A stretch of 22,524 nucleotides of DNA. It comes from a virus. Position numbers and translations under genes: made by a program. The stretch is from positions 1-22,524 of the IMG/VR virus record IMGVR_UViG_3300010354_000728; one strand, given 5' to 3'. How positions within the stretch are numbered: the stretch's first letter is position 1; each line of letters begins with the position of its first letter. The notes below the pieces were generated by a model. The model was given only the letters and a program-made list of their open reading frames with translations, searched no databases and was not told the DNA's origin. Shown here in pieces: positions 1,467 through 9,321 of the stretch.

Positions 1467-1496
1467 ACTGTAGCACAGGTGTCAAGGGTCTGTCAA
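1467..1496 (-). promoter_or_regulatory. sigma70-type promoter for the left small-gene cluster
   Basis: On the minus strand a perfect TTGACA (1496-1491) is followed after 18 bases by TACAGT (1472-1467, four of six matches to TATAAT). Transcription would start near 1460, giving a leader of about 16 bases before the ATG at 1443. The TGA inside this TTGACA is the stop codon of the upstream gene. A second TTGACA lies at 1485-1480, 11 bases downstream of the first, with no good -10 at the right distance. It may be a duplicated -35 or an operator. This is the best promoter visible in the window and suggests host-polymerase transcription of the small genes. Confidence 0.6.
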
Positions 1497-2383
1497 GCCT
1501 CCTGACAAAGTATATTTTTTTCTTGTAATATCTTATCATCCCACACCATTTCATAAATGAAAGTAGATTGCTCACTATTTTTTATGTACTTTTTTAACTC
1601 ATCATTAATAATTAATTCTTCTGAAATTTCTTTCATTTTATCCATACCCAAAACCACAGACCATTTATATTGCTCTGGACCTATAAAATAAAACCCAACT
1701 TTGATAATTGGAGTGAAACATTCAGAATTTATAATTGTTTGTATTTTTTCTTTGTCTTCATAATCAATATTTAATTCACAAAAATTTTTCTTAGAAATAA
1801 AAAAATCAAATTTTTTGGGCGTATGATCTGGATTTACTGTAACCGATGCCATTCCTATATCATATGATTTGATATCTTCAATTTTTTCTGGACAAGACTC
1901 TAAAAATTTTGGCATATAATTAATAAATTTTTCAAGTTCATTATTATCAAACGTATGAAGAGAAACGTAATTTAAATTATATTCTGAATGTAAAATATAC
2001 TTCATATCGGACGTAAAAGTTGTTCCAAAAGTATTAGAAGCTTCAAAAAAATAAGTATTTTCTAAACTACGATAAGATTGTAAAAATTGTGTTAAATGTT
2101 GAATATTTGTTCGGTCATTTTCATCAAAAACTACTCCAGCGTCAGAGTAAGGATTATATTTTGATGTTTTTTTAATTTCAAAACTATCACTGTCGTAACA
2201 GGTTTCATTTATTAACGCAGTGAAATATTTTTTGGATTTTGCTTTGGCATTTAAAAGTATTGGAAAAATATCTTCAAATGCTTCATACAATTGATCAATT
2301 TTTTCAAAAGATATAGAAACATTTCTTTTTTCCAATTCAGAAAGTATTTGATTAATATCAAAGGCAGAATAATCAGAAATCAT
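1493..2383 (-). CDS. hypothetical protein of the AT-rich operon (296 aa)
   Basis: I chose the ATG at 2383 (MISDYSAFDINQILSELEKR), which lies two bases after the stop of the preceding gene, rather than a TTG at 2425 that would overlap that gene by 40 bases. The 296-residue product begins with helical segments (about 8-50), then has a mixed alpha/beta body rich in Phe, Tyr, Asn, Lys and Ile. Scattered Cys residues form no motif. No signal peptide, transmembrane segment or known catalytic motif is seen. The base composition is extremely AT-rich (one 60-base line counted has 10 G or C). Its position as the last gene of a coupled operon directly after tail-fibre genes suggests a role in adhesin assembly or modification, which is inference only. 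Confidence 0.75.
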   Translation of the reverse strand: MISDYSAFDINQILSELEKRNVSISFEKIDQLYEAFEDIFPILLNAKAKSKKYFTALINETCYDSDSFEIKKTSKYNPYSDAGVVFDENDRTNIQHLTQFLQSYRSLENTYFFEASNTFGTTFTSDMKYILHSEYNLNYVSLHTFDNNELEKFINYMPKFLESCPEKIEDIKSYDIGMASVTVNPDHTPKKFDFFISKKNFCELNIDYEDKEKIQTIINSECFTPIIKVGFYFIGPEQYKWSVVLGMDKMKEISEELIINDELKKYIKNSEQSTFIYEMVWDDKILQEKNILCQEA

Positions 2384-2385
2384 AT

Positions 2386-2748
2386 TTAATATCCAATAAC
2401 ACAGCGTCCCATTTCGTCCACACAATCTACACTAACGTAGTAGTCTTCATCAACATCTTCATAATCGGGATCATTAATTAATGTCAAAGGGGGAAACCAA
2501 TTAGATGCGTTTATTTGTGCGTCATTTTTTGTAGTAAAATAACAATATATATCTCCATAACTAATCAATTCGTCAAGAATTTCGTGTGGTACTTTATCCT
2601 CATAAAATTGCCAGATTTTTTTAACTTTTTCGGGATCTTGGCATTTCAATGGACCTTCGGCTTGTATTCTCATAACGATTTTTCCAGAATACTTTGCCAA
2701 GTCCTTAATAAATTCTACGGTTGGTTTAATATCTCCTTGATAAATCAT
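2386..2748 (-). CDS. hypothetical protein of the AT-rich operon (120 aa)
   Basis: The product has 120 residues, MIYQGDIKPTVEFIKDLAKY at the start, and an acidic Asp/Glu-rich segment around residues 92-103 (DPDYEDVDEDYY) followed by a short beta-like end (VSVDCVDEMGRCV). The ATG overlaps the stop of the gene before it (ATGA), and GGAGG at 2763-2759 precedes it by 10 bases, so the start is well supported and translation is coupled. Two Cys near the C-terminus (about 109 and 116) could pair, but the cytosol of an infected cell makes that unlikely. No family is recognised. It sits between the chaperone-like 339-aa gene and the 296-aa gene and shares their low GC content. Confidence 0.75.
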   Translation of the reverse strand: MIYQGDIKPTVEFIKDLAKYSGKIVMRIQAEGPLKCQDPEKVKKIWQFYEDKVPHEILDELISYGDIYCYFTTKNDAQINASNWFPPLTLINDPDYEDVDEDYYVSVDCVDEMGRCVIGY

Positions 2749-3764
2749 TTCGAATCACCCTCCGCAGATTTGTTCAATTCTTCTAAAATATCTATCACTT
2801 CTTGTGATATGCTGCTACCAGACATATTACGATAATGCGAAATAAGTGACGACACTGTTAGATCGGTTCCAATTCTTTTTAGTTGTTCATCAATTTTTTC
2901 AGAAAACTCAGAGAAATTTGCTAGGAAATCTTCATCAGTTGGTGCTTCAGAATAAAAATTATTTAAATTCATATCCAATAGTGGTAATTTCAATCGAGAT
3001 AGTGCCATAACAATATGTTGTTTTATTAAGTATTCACAATATCTATTAATAATATTATTCATTTTATCTTCAAAATTATCATCATTCTTAATAGTCTCAA
3101 TATAATTATAAACTGAATTGTCAATTTGTCCCATTTCTTTCATTATATTGTATGTAAATTGATTTTTTTCTTCTGGTGAAACGGGCAACAATACTTTATG
3201 AATTTCTCCATTTTCCCAAGCTTCTTGTTTTGTTATGTCTCTCCATTCTTGGCGATACTTAGACCATTCTATTTTTTTCTCTTCGGAAATAGGATAATCA
3301 CCAATAAAAAGATAATCGGTTTTGCTCAAAACATTTTCTCTCGTGTTCAAAACAAAATTTTGAATAATAGAATAATTTTGTATTTCGCCTAAAATTTGTT
3401 GTTGAATATCTTTTTGTCTTTCTATTTGAATAGATTCAAAATATTCTATTAAAATTTTAGTAAATTCATTTACCTTTTCTTCATCAGTCGCATCAAATAC
3501 ATATGGCACTTTTTCAAAAATTTTGGTAGCATAATTATATACGGTTTTTTCTCTTTCGCAATAGTAATTACCATCAGAAAAAGAAGTAAATAATATTAAT
3601 TTGTCATTTTCACTGTGCCAAAATTCTGGCAGCAAAGAAATAAATTCCGATATTTGATCAGTGTTCATTTCTAGTGGATGTCCTTTGTAAGTAAATATGA
3701 ATTTATTTACTACGTCTGGATGGTCCGCGTGGGGATTTAAGTATACCGTTAATACTTTGTTCAT
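2745..3764 (-). CDS. protein with a tail-fibre assembly-chaperone-like segment (339 aa)
   Basis: The 339-residue product begins MNKVLTVYLNPHADHPDVVN. Residues about 141-181 (TRENVLSKTDYLFIGDYPIS, then EWSKYRQEWRDITKQ) closely resemble the Arg-x-x-L-x-x-x-D / Pro-(I/L)-x-x-E / W-x-x-YRQ-x-(L/W)-RD pattern of phage tail-fibre or tail assembly chaperones (the Caudo_TAP/TAC type). In those families this segment ends a short protein downstream of the fibre gene and helps it fold or attach. Here it is embedded in a longer protein with about 140 extra residues before it and a helical, acidic 160-residue part after it. The ATG at 3764 follows the adhesin gene by 19 bases; only a weak GA-rich site precedes it. 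The gene order (fibre, then chaperone) supports the assignment. The pattern match is from memory of the family. Confidence 0.62.
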   Translation of the reverse strand: MNKVLTVYLNPHADHPDVVNKFIFTYKGHPLEMNTDQISEFISLLPEFWHSENDKLILFTSFSDGNYYCEREKTVYNYATKIFEKVPYVFDATDEEKVNEFTKILIEYFESIQIERQKDIQQQILGEIQNYSIIQNFVLNTRENVLSKTDYLFIGDYPISEEKKIEWSKYRQEWRDITKQEAWENGEIHKVLLPVSPEEKNQFTYNIMKEMGQIDNSVYNYIETIKNDDNFEDKMNNIINRYCEYLIKQHIVMALSRLKLPLLDMNLNNFYSEAPTDEDFLANFSEFSEKIDEQLKRIGTDLTVSSLISHYRNMSGSSISQEVIDILEELNKSAEGDSK

Positions 3765-3780: not shown

Positions 3781-3788
3781 TATTTAGA
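3781..3788 (-). promoter_or_regulatory. T4-late-promoter-like element before the 339-aa gene
   Basis: The minus strand reads TCTAAATA, seven of eight matches to the T4 late promoter core TATAAATA. It overlaps the stop codon of the 1845-aa adhesin gene and lies 17 bases before the ATG at 3764, leaving room for a leader of roughly 8-10 bases. It could give the AT-rich helper operon its own late transcript. The short motif can arise by chance in DNA this AT-rich. Confidence 0.38.
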
Positions 3789-6700
3789 AAGCTTTGATGA
3801 GATATTTTAATCTAAAATATGGCTGTTGTAAAGGAATTGCCTCATTATTCCTCATATAAAAATCAAGAGCATTATCAAAATTAGTTCTTGATCTAGAACT
3901 CATTGTCGCAGTTCCAGATGGTAATGTTATACCTAAAGTTTCACTTGTAGAAGTGGGTTCAATATGATGATTTATTGTCTCTGATAAAAATTGATTAGCA
4001 GATCCCCTAAGTACTCCCCAGTTTCCATTGTGATCTGGACTACTGACACCACCAGTAGTTGGTGACGGTGCTGTTGGTGTGCTAGATGCAATAGTGATAG
4101 AAGCTGTTCCAGCTACTCCAGAATTACTAGAACCACCAGCTGCTCCGCCAGCATATCCAGAAGTTATAATAGGAGCAGAAGAAAAGAAAGCAGAATTGTA
4201 AGCACTAGTACCACCTGAACCAGCTGGAGCATTTACGTCACCCGAAGCTTGTGGACCGCCAGCACCGCCACGGTAACCACCGCCACCGCCACCGCCGCCG
4301 CCGCCATCACCAGATCTATCTCCACCTTGCCTTCCAGATCCTGGACTACCTCCACCAGATCCATCATATGGTTTAAAAGTTAAAGTAGATTGATTTGTAT
4401 AAAATTCAGAAGAATTTATAGTGCTAGAAGCAAAACTTGTTGGAGCAGCGCCACCATTGAATCTTGGATTTGTAACTCCTCCATGGTGACCACTTCCACC
4501 ACCACCGCCGCCACCGCCTGCCATAACTAAAATTGTTCCTCTTTGAATTCCACTTGGATTGGGTCCACTACCAATCGTTTCGCAAATAATAAACGCAGTA
4601 CCACCACCGCCGCCGCCAGACCCAGAACATCCACTAGGACCAGAATTTCCTCCTCTACCTCCACCCAATCCAGTCATTTGAGATCCGCCACCAGATCCAC
4701 CAGCACCATTCGAAGCACACCCAATACCCCCGCCACCAGCGAAAGGAACTACAACGCGCATATTACTTCCGCCAGGTATATTTGTACATGTTCCAGTTAT
4801 TCTAACACCAGCGCCGCCAGATGATCCAGGGTTTCCAGCATCATTTCCACCTCCACCACCAGAACCAGAGTAAATGGAAAAATTAAAACTAGTTTGATCA
4901 GCAGGTACGGTAAAATCATAAACCCCAGGAGAAGAATAAGTAAAAACTCCACCAGAAGAAGGAGGAACAACATCAGCACCAGTTCCTTCCCCCAAAGAAG
5001 CATCGTTTGGATTGAAAGATAAAGCATGACTATGCGTTCTGCCAGGATTTCTTGTATTTGTTATAATTCCTTCGGGTCCATCACTAATGTTTCCAGAGGC
5101 AGAATCCGATCTGGTGGCCCCACAACTACCAGATCCACCATATACAGCACTATCAGCAACATATATAATCGCATTAATTCTGTGGGCGTGTGCGGGAGGA
5201 CCACTCAATGCTACTTGTCCTATGCCACTGGAATCTGATATTTGATATGATGTAGATCCCGTAAATTGTGTTTCTGCTTCGATTGTACAATTTTCCCAAC
5301 CATCAGTTCTGTGTGTTCCAACAGTAAATAAGAATGGCGATACAGTTGGAGCAGTGCCATCTGGTTGACCACTTATATTTGGATTTCCTGGTGGCAACTG
5401 ATCATATTTTTCAAAGTTATATTCTCCACCCATAGATCCAGCGAGATTTATTTGTCCACCCGAAGTCCCATCTGGAGCATACAGAGGGACAACAGACGGC
5501 GATGATCTGTTATTATCAATATTTCCAGTACCAAGTAAATACTTTCCATAAGGACAAGGCAATCTAAAAACATCAGTGCTTTGATAATTTGGATATTGTC
5601 TTGTTGCTGGAATATTTCCACCATAAGTATTTCCCAAAATTCTTGCTAAATCTGGAAAATCTTGTGCTTTCAGTAATTGTCCTCGCATTTCAATATATCC
5701 AGGAAATCTATCATTTGACCCATATGGTCTAGTGGAAGCTGATACGCCCTGAACAGGGGCGCCAGATGATAATTGACCAGTCAAAGCAATTTTCCATCTA
5801 TCAGCATCATCGGTAGTAGCAGATGGATCTTCAAGGTATCCCGCTGGTTTTGGTACACATATAACAGTTCCGATCGCTGCTCCAACTTTTTGTCTTTGGT
5901 CGTTGTAAGATTGAACAGGCAAGGCAGATGAAATTACTGAAACAGTTATTTCTGCGGTGCTGAAAGGAGAACCAGCTGGACTAATAGGCAAAGTAAGTGG
6001 AATGCTTCTATAATATTTAACTAATGTAACCTGATTAAAAGTAATATTACATCTAAATTTAGAATTTGATAAACTAAGTGGTATATTAAACAAAGATAGT
6101 ATTGGTGTTGTAACACCATCAATATTAATATTGTATAAAGATGAATTAACTCCATTTGCTAAATTAAACCACGAAGCTCCACTAGTAGTGCTTGCTTGCC
6201 ACTGATACGTTGGGAGATCCGTTCCAGTGTAAATTGGTGCTATGTCTAAGATTAATGTTGAATTTGCCGTTATGGTTTTATTGGCAGCATCCGCAAAATA
6301 GTTAAATATTCTGTTAACTGTAACTGTACATTCATTTGAATAATAAGTATTTGGATTTCCTACTGCTGTTAAACGACAGCGATAAACATCACCATTATTA
6401 GTTGTTCTTGAAGGTGCTTGTATCCTGTAATTATTAGTATTAATAGTTGTTTGACCAAATCCAACAGGAGCAAGAGAAAATGTAGAAGATCCTACGGGTT
6501 TTAATTCCCATTGATATTGTATCGCTCCAGGAACGGTATTACTTGCCACCAACGAGAGTTCTGCGCCAGCAAAATCTTCCTCTACTGTGATAGAAGTAGG
6601 AATATTTGTTGTAATATTAATGGCAACAGGAAAAACTTGTAGTCTAGCAACATTACTGAAAGAAATAATAGATCCAGCACTTATCACTTGGCATCTATAG

Positions 6701-9321
6701 TAACCAGCGTCAGCAGTTGTAACCGAAGCTATTTGATAAGTAGAAGAGTTTGCTCCAATAATACTATTCCAGGTCGCGGAAGTAGGATTGCTGGGATTAT
6801 AGTTTGTACTTTTTTGCCATTGAAATGAGGGAGTAGACAAACTAGTAGAATTGGCACTGATTGTCCACGAAACACTATTATACTCTTGTACTTGTTTATC
6901 GTTAATTGATGTAATTCCTAAAAATGTATCTGTTCTAAGAACTAATGTTCCAAAAGAACTTTCTACAGAAGATAAAGAATCTGGAACAGACACAACACAT
7001 CTATAGTATCGTTCAAGAATACTAGCACTAACTGTGGTAATCAATAACGTATCAGTGTTAATTCCAGAATATTTGGGTGCTTTGTGTATCGTAAATGGTC
7101 CAACTCCATTCCCTGTCGGTATGTTTAGCACAGTATATCTAAATTGTGTGCTTGTAAGTCCAGCAGACAAAACGATGAATGTGCCGTTATATGTTATTGG
7201 TGTAACCCCAGAAACATATATTCTAGTTCCCGCTGTTAAATTATGTGGAGTAGAACACGTAACAGTAACTGTATACTGACTAAAAGTTATAGATGTGACA
7301 TTTAATAAAGGAGAATTATCTACTATAGGAGACCAAGTTACTCCATTTACACTATATTCCCATGCATAATTTATTATTGTTCCGCTGGATGGAGATGCTG
7401 ATATCGTAAAACTAGCAATAGAATTTTCAAACGTCTCGGAATTTCCTGGATTGTTATCAATATATGCTGTTCTAAAAACAGAAATAGTACAGGGATTGGA
7501 AAAAGTAGTAACCGAATTTCCTCCACTATTATAAGTTACATACATTCTATATTTTGATAAATGATCTGTGCTTCTTCTTAATGGTGGAGTTGTAAATGTA
7601 TGTATTCCAGCAGTGCTGGGAGACGTACTTGTTGGCGGTGGTAAATTTGTCCCAAAATCATTTTTCAGGGTTCCAACATCTGTCCACCCAGTTTCACCTA
7701 CATATTGTCTTTGCCACCCCAAAGTTATTGGTCCTCTTACTCCAGTATCTATAGAAACATCAACGCCAGCATTTAGAGTTATTGTTTGTTGATTTTCTAT
7801 GAACGAAGAACGATTAGATACTGGTCCATATCTATCTTCTACAGCAGAATCATCAAATGGTCCAGAAATAATCGCAGTTTGTGTTAAATATAAAAGAGCA
7901 TCATTAGAAATTACTGCTTGTTCTCCAGATAATCCTGTTATATTTACTCTTATGTAAAGTAAATTACTACTAGATCCAGATAACAATTTAACTCTTTCTA
8001 GTTGGAGAATAGGTCCATCTGCAGTTGTTCCAGAAACCAATCTAAAGGGAGTTTCTGTTGCTTGTGGATTATTAACTAATATTGGAGAATAAAGTGGTGT
8101 ATCACTCCATCTATATTCCCAACTGTATGATATTGATGTTGTAGATGTAGTAAAAGCAGTAACACTTAAAGTAGCATTTCCACTACCAGAAACATTCGTG
8201 TTATATGATATAGTACTAGTTGTATCTGTTCCTGTTCCTGGTTGTTTACTAATAAGTATTTGAGGATTAACTAGTAAAGTTATGGAATTAGTAGTTACAG
8301 GACTATTTGAAGCAGTAGTTCCATCCTTCGAATAAGAGATTTGACATCTGTATCTTCTATTATTTTGAGAAAATGAAATACTTGAAAGAGTAAGAACAGA
8401 TTGCTTAAAATATTGAATTGGAGTAGTCGGAAAAGAAATCATCGTTTCCGTTACTGTAGCAGTAGATCCAGTAACAATATTTGTCCAAGTAGATCCTCCA
8501 TCAGTACTTTGCTGCCACTGAAACGCCATCGGCGTAACATTTGTTTGGGTGGTATTAATAAAATTAGATAAAGTACTATTTGTTGTTGCTTGAAGTGTAA
8601 ATGATAAAGTAGCACCCGTAGCAACCGTGTAAGAGGCAAGATTAAAATCAATAACATTTATTTGGGGGGGTGCTTGAACGCTCAAAGTTCTAACAAATCC
8701 CACTTCATTGCTATAAACAGTAGAATTTAAAGTAGAAGCAGCTGGAGATAAAATAATTGTCCCAACCATGTTAGTTGGATTCTCCGCTGAAATATAATAA
8801 TATGTGCCAGCAGCAAGACCTGTCGTATTCCAAACAACAGTATTATTTTGAGTTCCGTTGTTAGTCACTCCCGTAGTTACAAGACTACCAGTTCCACCCA
8901 CCGCAGATGTCTTAAGATAAAAAGTATTTCCGTTTGTAGAACTAACAGCAAATCGTAAAGTATCTCCAACTACGGCATTAATTGTTGGATTGCTACCAGT
9001 GGCAGATCCAGTAAAAGACCAAAAAGCAGATCCGTTGCCAACAACAGTATAGTTATATGTTACTGGTACATATGGAGTAAGTTCTGATATAGCAACTCTA
9101 ATTTGATCGCCATTAGCTGTAATTGGTATATTTGTAAGAGTAATACTAGAAGCACCATTATCTGGCAAATCTAACCACGTTGTTCCATTATTACTGGTTT
9201 GCCAAAGATACGATAACGTCGCTCCAGATATGTTACTGGTAGCAGCAACAGAAAAAGTTAATGATCCGCCAGCAAAAACTGTTGGTGTAGTTGGTGTAAG
9301 CGAAGAAATTGTGATGGACAT
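3784..9321 (-). CDS. giant tail adhesin: Ig-like stalk, tail-collar domain, glycine-rich tip (1845 aa)
   Basis: Probable host-recognition protein of the tail or baseplate. Residues 1-90 form an Ig-like domain (Trp40). Residues 92-196 are cupredoxin-like. Residues about 220-1120 hold a series of Ig-like domains, each marked by a Y/F-x-W near the middle and most by a later YxC (Trp269/Cys326, Trp835/Cys877, Trp938/Cys982, Trp1041/Cys1091 and others). One of them (617-796) has a foreign module inserted at about 676-748. Residues about 1140-1275 are a tail-collar domain (GTVICVPKPAGYLED, then GYIEMRGQLLKAQDFPDLA and FRLPCPYGKYLLG). HAH at 1378-1380 and HSH at 1430-1432 are the metal-binding motif type of short tail fibres. 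Residues 1458-1740 are a glycine-rich domain, followed by the C-terminal YLIKAF ending shared with the two genes before it. The ATG lies five bases after the upstream stop, with no clear ribosome site, suggesting coupling. Confidence 0.85.
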   Translation of the reverse strand: MSITISSLTPTTPTVFAGGSLTFSVAATSNISGATLSYLWQTSNNGTTWLDLPDNGASSITLTNIPITANGDQIRVAISELTPYVPVTYNYTVVGNGSAFWSFTGSATGSNPTINAVVGDTLRFAVSSTNGNTFYLKTSAVGGTGSLVTTGVTNNGTQNNTVVWNTTGLAAGTYYYISAENPTNMVGTIILSPAASTLNSTVYSNEVGFVRTLSVQAPPQINVIDFNLASYTVATGATLSFTLQATTNSTLSNFINTTQTNVTPMAFQWQQSTDGGSTWTNIVTGSTATVTETMISFPTTPIQYFKQSVLTLSSISFSQNNRRYRCQISYSKDGTTASNSPVTTNSITLLVNPQILISKQPGTGTDTTSTISYNTNVSGSGNATLSVTAFTTSTTSISYSWEYRWSDTPLYSPILVNNPQATETPFRLVSGTTADGPILQLERVKLLSGSSSNLLYIRVNITGLSGEQAVISNDALLYLTQTAIISGPFDDSAVEDRYGPVSNRSSFIENQQTITLNAGVDVSIDTGVRGPITLGWQRQYVGETGWTDVGTLKNDFGTNLPPPTSTSPSTAGIHTFTTPPLRRSTDHLSKYRMYVTYNSGGNSVTTFSNPCTISVFRTAYIDNNPGNSETFENSIASFTISASPSSGTIINYAWEYSVNGVTWSPIVDNSPLLNVTSITFSQYTVTVTCSTPHNLTAGTRIYVSGVTPITYNGTFIVLSAGLTSTQFRYTVLNIPTGNGVGPFTIHKAPKYSGINTDTLLITTVSASILERYYRCVVSVPDSLSSVESSFGTLVLRTDTFLGITSINDKQVQEYNSVSWTISANSTSLSTPSFQWQKSTNYNPSNPTSATWNSIIGANSSTYQIASVTTADAGYYRCQVISAGSIISFSNVARLQVFPVAINITTNIPTSITVEEDFAGAELSLVASNTVPGAIQYQWELKPVGSSTFSLAPVGFGQTTINTNNYRIQAPSRTTNNGDVYRCRLTAVGNPNTYYSNECTVTVNRIFNYFADAANKTITANSTLILDIAPIYTGTDLPTYQWQASTTSGASWFNLANGVNSSLYNINIDGVTTPILSLFNIPLSLSNSKFRCNITFNQVTLVKYYRSIPLTLPISPAGSPFSTAEITVSVISSALPVQSYNDQRQKVGAAIGTVICVPKPAGYLEDPSATTDDADRWKIALTGQLSSGAPVQGVSASTRPYGSNDRFPGYIEMRGQLLKAQDFPDLARILGNTYGGNIPATRQYPNYQSTDVFRLPCPYGKYLLGTGNIDNNRSSPSVVPLYAPDGTSGGQINLAGSMGGEYNFEKYDQLPPGNPNISGQPDGTAPTVSPFLFTVGTHRTDGWENCTIEAETQFTGSTSYQISDSSGIGQVALSGPPAHAHRINAIIYVADSAVYGGSGSCGATRSDSASGNISDGPEGIITNTRNPGRTHSHALSFNPNDASLGEGTGADVVPPSSGGVFTYSSPGVYDFTVPADQTSFNFSIYSGSGGGGGNDAGNPGSSGGAGVRITGTCTNIPGGSNMRVVVPFAGGGGIGCASNGAGGSGGGSQMTGLGGGRGGNSGPSGCSGSGGGGGGTAFIICETIGSGPNPSGIQRGTILVMAGGGGGGGGSGHHGGVTNPRFNGGAAPTSFASSTINSSEFYTNQSTLTFKPYDGSGGGSPGSGRQGGDRSGDGGGGGGGGGGYRGGAGGPQASGDVNAPAGSGGTSAYNSAFFSSAPIITSGYAGGAAGGSSNSGVAGTASITIASSTPTAPSPTTGGVSSPDHNGNWGVLRGSANQFLSETINHHIEPTSTSETLGITLPSGTATMSSRSRTNFDNALDFYMRNNEAIPLQQPYFRLKYLIKAF
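4117..4869 (-). repeat. glycine-rich low-complexity domain with (GGC/GGT)n runs
   Basis: This codes for residues about 1485-1735 of the 1845-aa adhesin. The segment opens with a beta-sandwich-like lead-in (PGVYDFTVPADQTSFNFSIY) and continues with runs of six to ten glycines separated by short hydrophobic strands such as MRVVVPFAGGGG and GTILVMAGGGG. That layout matches the glycine-rich domain found at phage fibre tips, where glycine runs can pack as polyglycine-II helices (as in the gp38 adhesin of T-even-like phage S16). At DNA level the longest runs (around 4277-4306, 4501-4519, 4600-4617) are near-tandem GCC/ACC triplets on the plus strand and are natural sites for slippage. Confidence 0.75.
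5497..5889 (-). other. tail-collar domain inside the 1845-aa adhesin
   Basis: Residues about 1145-1275 have the order seen in phage short-tail-fibre collar domains: a Gly-(T)-(V/I)-I strand near the start, a Gly-(Y/W)-x-x-x-x-Gly strand (GYIEMRGQ), an 'F-P-D-L-A-x-x-L-G-x-x-Y-G-G' helix-turn, and a closing 'F-R-L-P' strand. The same order occurs in the two genes upstream, at residues 18-80 and 12-100 respectively. Confidence 0.75.
7078..7296 (-). other. HNL module inserted in an Ig-like domain
   Basis: Residues about 676-748 of the 1845-aa protein form a compact beta module with the pattern T-V-T-x-x-T-P-H-N-L-x-x-G-x-x-I-x-V-x-G ... Y-N-G-x-F-x-V-L-S-A ... F-R-Y-T-V. It interrupts an Ig-like domain: before it lie the Trp strand (YAWEYSVNGVTW) and after it the expected TLLIT strand and YYRC. 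The module shares the 15-residue string VLSAGLTSTQFRYTV with a module in the giant structural protein at 19812-20025. Confidence 0.75.
8734..9048 (-). other. cupredoxin-like domain without copper ligands
   Basis: Residues about 92-196 of the 1845-aa protein follow a cupredoxin layout: GDTLRFAV strand, NTFYLKTS strand where the first copper His would be, GVTNNGTQNNTVVW, then AAGTYYYISAENPTNMVGTI. In copper-binding relatives the last stretch reads Y-x-C-x-x-H-x-x-M-x-G. Here Ser replaces Cys and Asn replaces His, while the Met-Val-Gly end is kept. The fold is probably kept without the metal site. Confidence 0.62.

Follow-up and report, generated by a model that had tools for sequence, protein, structure and literature searches.

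The window analysed here is a stretch of 22,524 nucleotides (nt) of viral DNA (IMG/VR record IMGVR_UViG_3300010354_000728, positions 1 to 22,524), which, from its gene order and its DNA matches to Synechococcus phages, is part of a T4-like cyanomyovirus. On its minus strand, a fibre cluster coding for proteins of 3683, 363, 323 and 1845 amino acids (aa) ends with a collar/Ig/glycine-rich fibre gene (1845 aa, 3784..9321) and is followed, after 19 nt, by the three genes that are the subject of this work, which occupy 3764-1493 of the same strand in the order 339 aa, 120 aa and 296 aa. The first (2745..3764, minus strand) codes for a chaperone of the T4-GC_741/phrog_4697 type, the second (2386..2748, minus strand) for a partner that appears to be a remote relative of T4-GC_742/phrog_4883, and the third (1493..2383, minus strand) for a protein with a predicted prenyltransferase (ABBA) barrel, the counterpart of T4-GC_743/phrog_4851 by position and fold. 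The chaperone stop codon and the start of the 120-aa gene share a 4-nt ATGA overlap, and 2 nt separate the end of the 120-aa gene from the ATG of the 296-aa gene at 2383. A 310-aa version of the latter, starting at the TTG at 2425 in the list of open reading frames (ORFs), was dropped, the likeness to relatives starting at ATG 2383.

The original prediction, made from the sequence alone, had described three coupled genes of low GC content behind a fibre gene, and this description was borne out. Two other uncultured lineages, represented by the IMG/VR contigs L002 and L003 (a further contig, L001, is a near copy of L002), carry the three genes in unchanged order; there they lie behind 1850- and 1854-aa versions of the 1845-aa fibre and keep both the overlap and the near-zero gap. 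In three pairwise comparisons the ratio of nonsynonymous to synonymous substitution rates (dN/dS) was 0.27-0.33 for the chaperone, 0.12-0.17 for the 120-aa protein, 0.32-0.47 for the 296-aa protein and 0.21-0.27 for the fibre, values that are rough, dS being near or above 1; the 120-aa gene had the lowest ratio of the four. Because the ratios of the trio lie at 0.12-0.47, all its members are taken to be real genes, and they are under purifying selection. Their GC content (0.286, 0.333 and 0.256, in gene order) is under that of the window (0.373), whereas their GC content at third codon positions (0.212, 0.256 and 0.162) is ordinary and comparable with that of the fibre genes (0.178-0.225). The low GC therefore reflects protein composition, and foreign origin was rejected as its cause.

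Sequence comparison gives good support for the 339-aa protein being a tail-fibre assembly chaperone of known kind. A chaperone-like segment had been suspected inside it, and the profile search proposed at the time found the segment to be real: PF16778 (Phage_tail_APC) matches residues 141-198 (E 1.4e-10; score 41.3 bits, cut-off 26.6), and residues 25-202 are covered by phrog_4697, 'tail assembly chaperone' (E 2.5e-24). Alignment of profiles with hhalign against 14 cyanophage tail assembly chaperones gave Prob 99.7 and E 7.5e-27 over 174 columns, and a tblastn search of 50,697 phage records found relatives in 55, of which 54 belong to cyanophages and one, annotated as a tail fibre assembly protein, to a Roseobacter phage. 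A viral-contig scan with the single 339-aa protein returned no relatives. Among six further chaperones PF16778 scored above its cut-off in four (S-WAM2, S-H9-1, S-RSM4 and the single-cell virus AG-345-P14), below it in Sf-CH1b, and was absent in S-PM2. The segment had been said to sit in a much longer protein; it does cover residues 141-198 of 339, but the protein is not oddly long, the 17 chaperones we translated measuring 275-340 aa and PHROG 4697 having 314 residues. Profile match, length and the place directly behind the fibre cluster are thus shared with Phage_tail_APC, PHROG 4697 and T4-GC_741, while two features set the window lineage apart from T4-GC_741 chaperones: the 2-oxoglutarate- and Fe(II)-dependent (2OG-Fe(II)) oxygenases that usually flank the gene are missing, and the last 140 residues align poorly with chaperones outside the lineage.

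The expected job of the protein is that of Pam3 gp25 and Mu Tfa, an intermolecular chaperone for a fibre with a distal glycine-rich part. In the portion of PMC9608196 that we draw on, one domain of gp25, from a cyanophage, binds the TNF-like and glycine-rich end of its fibre, a helical domain trimerises, and gp25 was undetected in virions. The two differ in size, gp25 having 162 aa and the window chaperone 339. Sequence searches of the PDB with the chaperone gave no gp25 match; the only significant one was to 2kz6, reached only by a profile of 10 chaperones (E 8.7e-13).

The likely client of this chaperone is the 1845-aa fibre, behind whose gene it directly lies, as the original prediction had stated. 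The fibre carries a Collar domain (PF07484, residues 1198-1248, E 5.7e-8) and an Ig domain (811-883), contains 43 Gly per 100 residues from residue 1529 on, and ends in KYLIKAF. For comparison we read 17 phage loci, 16 from cultured phages and one from AG-345-P14; 14 were picked by chaperone matches and three by matches to GC_742, so that they are not a blind sample. In all 17 the fibre cluster precedes the chaperone gene, and no more than a single gene intervenes between the last fibre gene and the chaperone. The C-terminal pattern KY[LI]IK[AV][FYW] closes every one of the 17 upstream fibres that were compared, a set that includes those of the window, L002 and L003. A Collar domain was present in all seven upstream fibres tested, and an Ig domain in that of the window only. 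It had been supposed that the partner genes might be made necessary by the unusual 1845-aa protein, and a search for their co-occurrence with Ig/glycine-rich collar proteins had been proposed. The supposition did not hold. Only five of 17 upstream fibres reach at least 40 Gly per 100 residues (window, L002, L003, S-RSM4 and S-WAM2), and in S-H9-1 and S-MbCM7 the chaperone and a partner of the 120-aa type follow plain collar proteins of 370 and 581 aa, respectively, with no Ig domain by Pfam and at most 17 Gly per 100 residues. The 1845-aa protein is thus a likely client without being the reason for the existence of the trio.

The 120-aa protein had no direct Pfam or PHROG match, and tblastn in the 50,697 phage records was empty. 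However, cultured phages have a gene of 111-130 aa behind the chaperone, and in S-WAM2 this gene overlaps the chaperone gene by an ATGA, just as in the window; the S-WAM2 and window proteins share 34% identity over 59 aa (blastp in a small set, E 4e-9). By hhalign, the window group joined a group formed by S-WAM2, S-MbCM7, S-H9-1 and S-RSM4 (Prob 96.5), which in turn joined the S-PM2-type family, T4-GC_742 or phrog_4883 (Prob 96.3). The direct comparison of the window group with the S-PM2 type was weak (Prob 35.9), and phrog_4883 itself did not match the window protein; the L002 copy reached E 0.1, which does not pass. Searching solved structures by sequence gave matches at chance level. Accordingly, we regard the 120-aa protein as a remote relative of T4-GC_742, whose size it shares and whose place behind the chaperone it takes in the window, L002 and L003 alike, with a sequence link that runs through intermediates only. 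In S-RSM4 the 111-aa gene adjoining the chaperone was dropped as a GC_742 candidate, and a 130-aa gene further down is a weak GC_742 relative.

Apart from L001-L003, no sequence relatives of the 296-aa protein turned up in the 50,697 phage records (tblastn) or in the viral contigs scanned, and its sequence gave chance-level matches among solved structures. Its structure was modelled with AlphaFold2 from three sequences. Foldseek against the PDB returned nine matches at E<=0.001, all aromatic prenyltransferases, and prenyltransferases fill the first 27 rows. With VIA-align, residues 54-295 of the window protein superimposed on the cyanobacterial indole prenyltransferase AmbP1 with Z 9.7 and a root-mean-square deviation (rmsd) of 4.8 over 205 residues. 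A fold search in BFVD gave a protein of S-CAM1 (329 aa) as best match, and five of the seven matches at E<=1.1e-3 came from S-CAM1, ACG-2014e, S-RIM44, S-CAM3 and S-RIM32. From source phage and length, these five appear to be T4-GC_743 proteins; the length agrees with that of the GC_743 gene for four of the five, the S-CAM3 entry having 325 aa and its RefSeq gene 299 aa. The second-best BFVD match was a mimivirus protein, A0A0G2YAF0 (604 aa, E 5.9e-5), whose JmjC-domain name, that of a 2OG-type oxygenase, recalls the oxygenase neighbourhood of the cyanophage genes; a literature search for a link between JmjC and prenyltransferases gave nothing useful. G8EC07 (428 aa) was noted alongside it among the viral fold matches.

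T4-GC_743 is the gene directly behind T4-GC_742 in cultured phages, and both are catalogued without function. GC_743 genes fetched from IMG/VR (19 loci, 12 distinct sequences) allowed an independent test, for which the S-PM2 protein was modelled. This model was confident (predicted local distance difference test, pLDDT, 84.2; predicted template modelling score, pTM, 0.82) and shows five beta-hairpins between helices. VIA-align placed its residues 1-289 on AmbP1 (Z 12.9, rmsd 3.9, 217 residues), and all 50 rows listed were prenyltransferases, the fiftieth still at Z 10.1; with Foldseek, prenyltransferases took the first 28 rows. Two independent models, from families with no detectable sequence similarity, thus match the same enzymes. 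By hhalign, two of three GC_743 groups are linked to each other with Prob 99.6, and for the third the link to one of these two reaches only 40-79, whereas the 296-aa group aligned with the three groups at Prob 0.1-3.8 only, which is no link, and the 296-aa protein had no phrog_4851 match. The 296-aa protein and GC_743 are therefore to be regarded as linked by predicted fold and by place only: they share order behind the chaperone, size and modelled fold. A pattern scan with the GC_743 alignment, which reaches fairly close relatives only, covered the genomes of 84,980 species of bacteria and archaea and found no relative. The 231-aa annotation of the S-RIM32 GC_743 gene (BJD26_gp214, L013:8499-9194) looks too short, the tblastn match spanning all 295 query residues from record position 46576; and a 348-aa S-H9-1 gene at the GC_743 place was rejected, having no match in the set, so that S-H9-1 was counted without GC_743.

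According to these models, the 296-aa protein is predicted to have the ten-strand alpha-beta-beta-alpha barrel of the ABBA prenyltransferases. Support for the fold is good; catalytic activity is putative. Compared with the ABBA prenyltransferases AmbP1, AmbP3, FamD1, CloQ, NphB, KgpF, PagF, PatF and LimF, the fold match of GC_743 covers the whole length and that of the window protein is partial, from about residue 54 to 295; identity in aligned rows is 4-12%. The genomic setting also differs, ABBA prenyltransferases being found in a natural-product cluster and the phage genes next to a fibre chaperone.

The association of the partner genes with the chaperone extends to very different phages. 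A GC_742-type gene follows the chaperone in 17 of 17 loci (weakly in S-RSM4). Among the IMG/VR loci found with a GC_743 query, several of which are near copies, GC_742 stands just upstream in 28 of 28 and the chaperone in 26 of 28; the two exceptions, L050 and L051, begin so near the gene that a chaperone would fall outside the contig. A search with the 120-aa alignment gave six IMG/VR loci of the S-WAM2 type, each of which has a chaperone just upstream together with GC_742, and no GC_743 match within the DNA covered. In AG-345-P14 a collar fibre, a 2OG oxygenase, the chaperone, GC_742 and a GC_743 recognisable by sequence all abut. Since the genes of the window lineage and of AG-345-P14 overlap or abut with nothing between them, they may form one translational unit. 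The lack of any profile match and the presence of these genes far from fibre genes had been named as grounds for abandoning the idea of a fibre-related operon; neither was seen.

The block follows a collar-type fibre, and 2OG-Fe(II) oxygenases usually lie between. Like the prenyltransferase-like fold, these oxygenases were beyond the reach of the original prediction. Such a gene, annotated or matched, stands between the last fibre gene and the chaperone in 16 of 17 loci, S-WAM2 being the exception, and one or two more often lie between the chaperone and GC_742. The window lineage has none inside the trio; downstream of it, two lie about 1 kb away in L002 and one about 3.4 kb away in L003, while the window stops too early to show whether any follow. 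Genes at the oxygenase place of the block that are annotated as DNA endonuclease V matched 2OG-FeII_Oxy_3 (PF13640) above the cut-off in three of three cases, namely S-PM2 (L007:7489-7998, E 1.9e-6), S-RIM32 (L013:7470-7973, E 1.3e-6) and S-RSM4 (L008:7691-8221, E 5.6e-7), and the endonuclease annotation is probably wrong in these phages; two further genes at that place matched the same family below the cut-off. In Sf-CH1b (L048, 3245-8352), five 2OG-type oxygenase genes, three above and two below a Pfam 2OG cut-off, are interleaved with the chaperone, GC_742 and GC_743 behind the fibre.

A CTAAATA motif (3781..3787, minus strand), speculatively a late promoter, lies at the fibre stop codon, 16 nt upstream of the chaperone start. 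It occupies the equivalent place in L002 (8961), L003 (8952) and S-WAM2 (L009, before 5860); the window has two copies against 5.9 expected. Promoter and terminator scans were at chance level (19 against 17.0 expected and 1 against 1.1 expected, respectively), and HATAAATA was found 0 times in the window against 7.65 expected, as if avoided inside genes. Downstream of the L003 trio, a 251-aa ORF (L003:13636-14391) looks methyltransferase-like by eye; nothing equivalent was seen among the ORFs listed for L002 and for the window.

We lean, with modest confidence, towards the trio being a fibre-maturation cassette of a T4-like cyanomyovirus. In this scenario the 339-aa Tfa-like chaperone would hold the C-terminal part of the preceding collar-type fibre and promote its folding and trimerisation, a step well supported by homology, and the analogy with Pam3 gp25 suggests that it is probably absent from the virion. 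The 120-aa protein may act as a co-factor or adaptor of the chaperone, as its strict linkage and translational coupling suggest. The 296-aa protein, with its predicted prenyltransferase barrel, would then act on the chaperone-held fibre: it might attach an isoprenoid, or a group of similar kind, to a residue exposed close to the tip, or else bind the tip non-catalytically. The 2OG-Fe(II) oxygenases that most relatives have in the block may hydroxylate the same client. A fuller version, in which a chaperone-guided line of marine T4-like cyanophages hydroxylates and prenylates the tips of their host-recognition fibres by means of a GC_743-type enzyme, a GC_742 adaptor and, mostly, 2OG-Fe(II) hydroxylases, is a speculation that we consider unlikely to hold in full.

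Several of our results weigh against this interpretation. The tie of the 120-aa and 296-aa proteins to the fibre is one of position alone, and GC_743 is missing in four of the 17 loci (S-MbCM7, S-H9-1, S-RSM4 and S-WAM2); it is therefore not needed for the chaperone. The confidence of the 296-aa model is low (pLDDT 58.9, pTM 0.56), no prenyltransferase profile of Pfam (to E 1 and E 10) or NCBIfam (to E 1) matched the protein, and the best Foldseek match of the GC_743 model had an E of only 6.6e-3 (probability 0.97), with none at 0.001. Moreover, the diphosphate-binding residues of AmbP1, given in the part of PMC6632223 used here as K117, N168, Y170, R223, Y227, Y276 and K278, are not clearly kept in the window protein: when mapped by alignment ends only, Y276 and K278 fall on E287 and N289.

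The alternative that survives best is that the fibre is served by the chaperone alone. The 120-aa and 296-aa genes would then be accessory genes, located where the structural cluster meets the helicase region, that act on host metabolism. The absence of GC_743 from four loci fits this view, as does the end of the block near a helicase gene in many cultured phages, and the published portions of PMC3037559 and PMC9602691 on which we rely connect cyanophage 2OG oxygenases with nitrogen metabolism, DNA repair or host reprogramming and not with fibres. Yet GC_742 accompanies the chaperone at every locus where the DNA extends far enough, the compact arrangement in the window lineage and AG-345-P14 suggests a single translational unit, and the 120-aa gene is under more constraint than the fibre itself. 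We hold this alternative to be possible, if somewhat unlikely. From the low confidence of a model built on three sequences, and from profiles that give no link to GC_743, one might argue that the prenyltransferase-like fold of the 296-aa protein arose from the modelling and that the protein is something else; this seems very unlikely to us, the uniform Foldseek rows, the confident GC_743 model of the same fold, and best viral matches that come from GC_743-carrying phages, mostly with the GC_743 length and with the gene at the same place, all speaking against it. There is only a slight chance that the 296-aa or GC_743 gene is an auxiliary metabolic gene whose product is an active aromatic prenyltransferase for small molecules, such as an indole, quinone or pigment of the cyanobacterial host, for although the nearest solved folds are the cyanobacterial indole prenyltransferases AmbP1, AmbP3 and FamD1, the gene stands behind a fibre chaperone wherever the DNA allowed checking, its diphosphate-binding residues are not clearly conserved, and the genome scan, within its reach of fairly close relatives, found none in bacteria or archaea.

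Among the listings of PMC searches on prenyltransferases in phages, we found no report assigning a prenyltransferase barrel to GC_743. Provided that the fold is right, T4-GC_743 (phrog_4851), carried by cultured ocean phages, becomes a candidate for a family of phage proteins with the prenyltransferase fold. The fixed place of its gene behind a fibre chaperone, amid 2OG-Fe(II) oxygenases, leads to the testable idea that phage adhesins may undergo post-translational chemical modification. If true, a phage adhesin would be the target of protein prenylation or of a similar modification, and some of the many cyanophage 2OG oxygenases would gain a concrete client.

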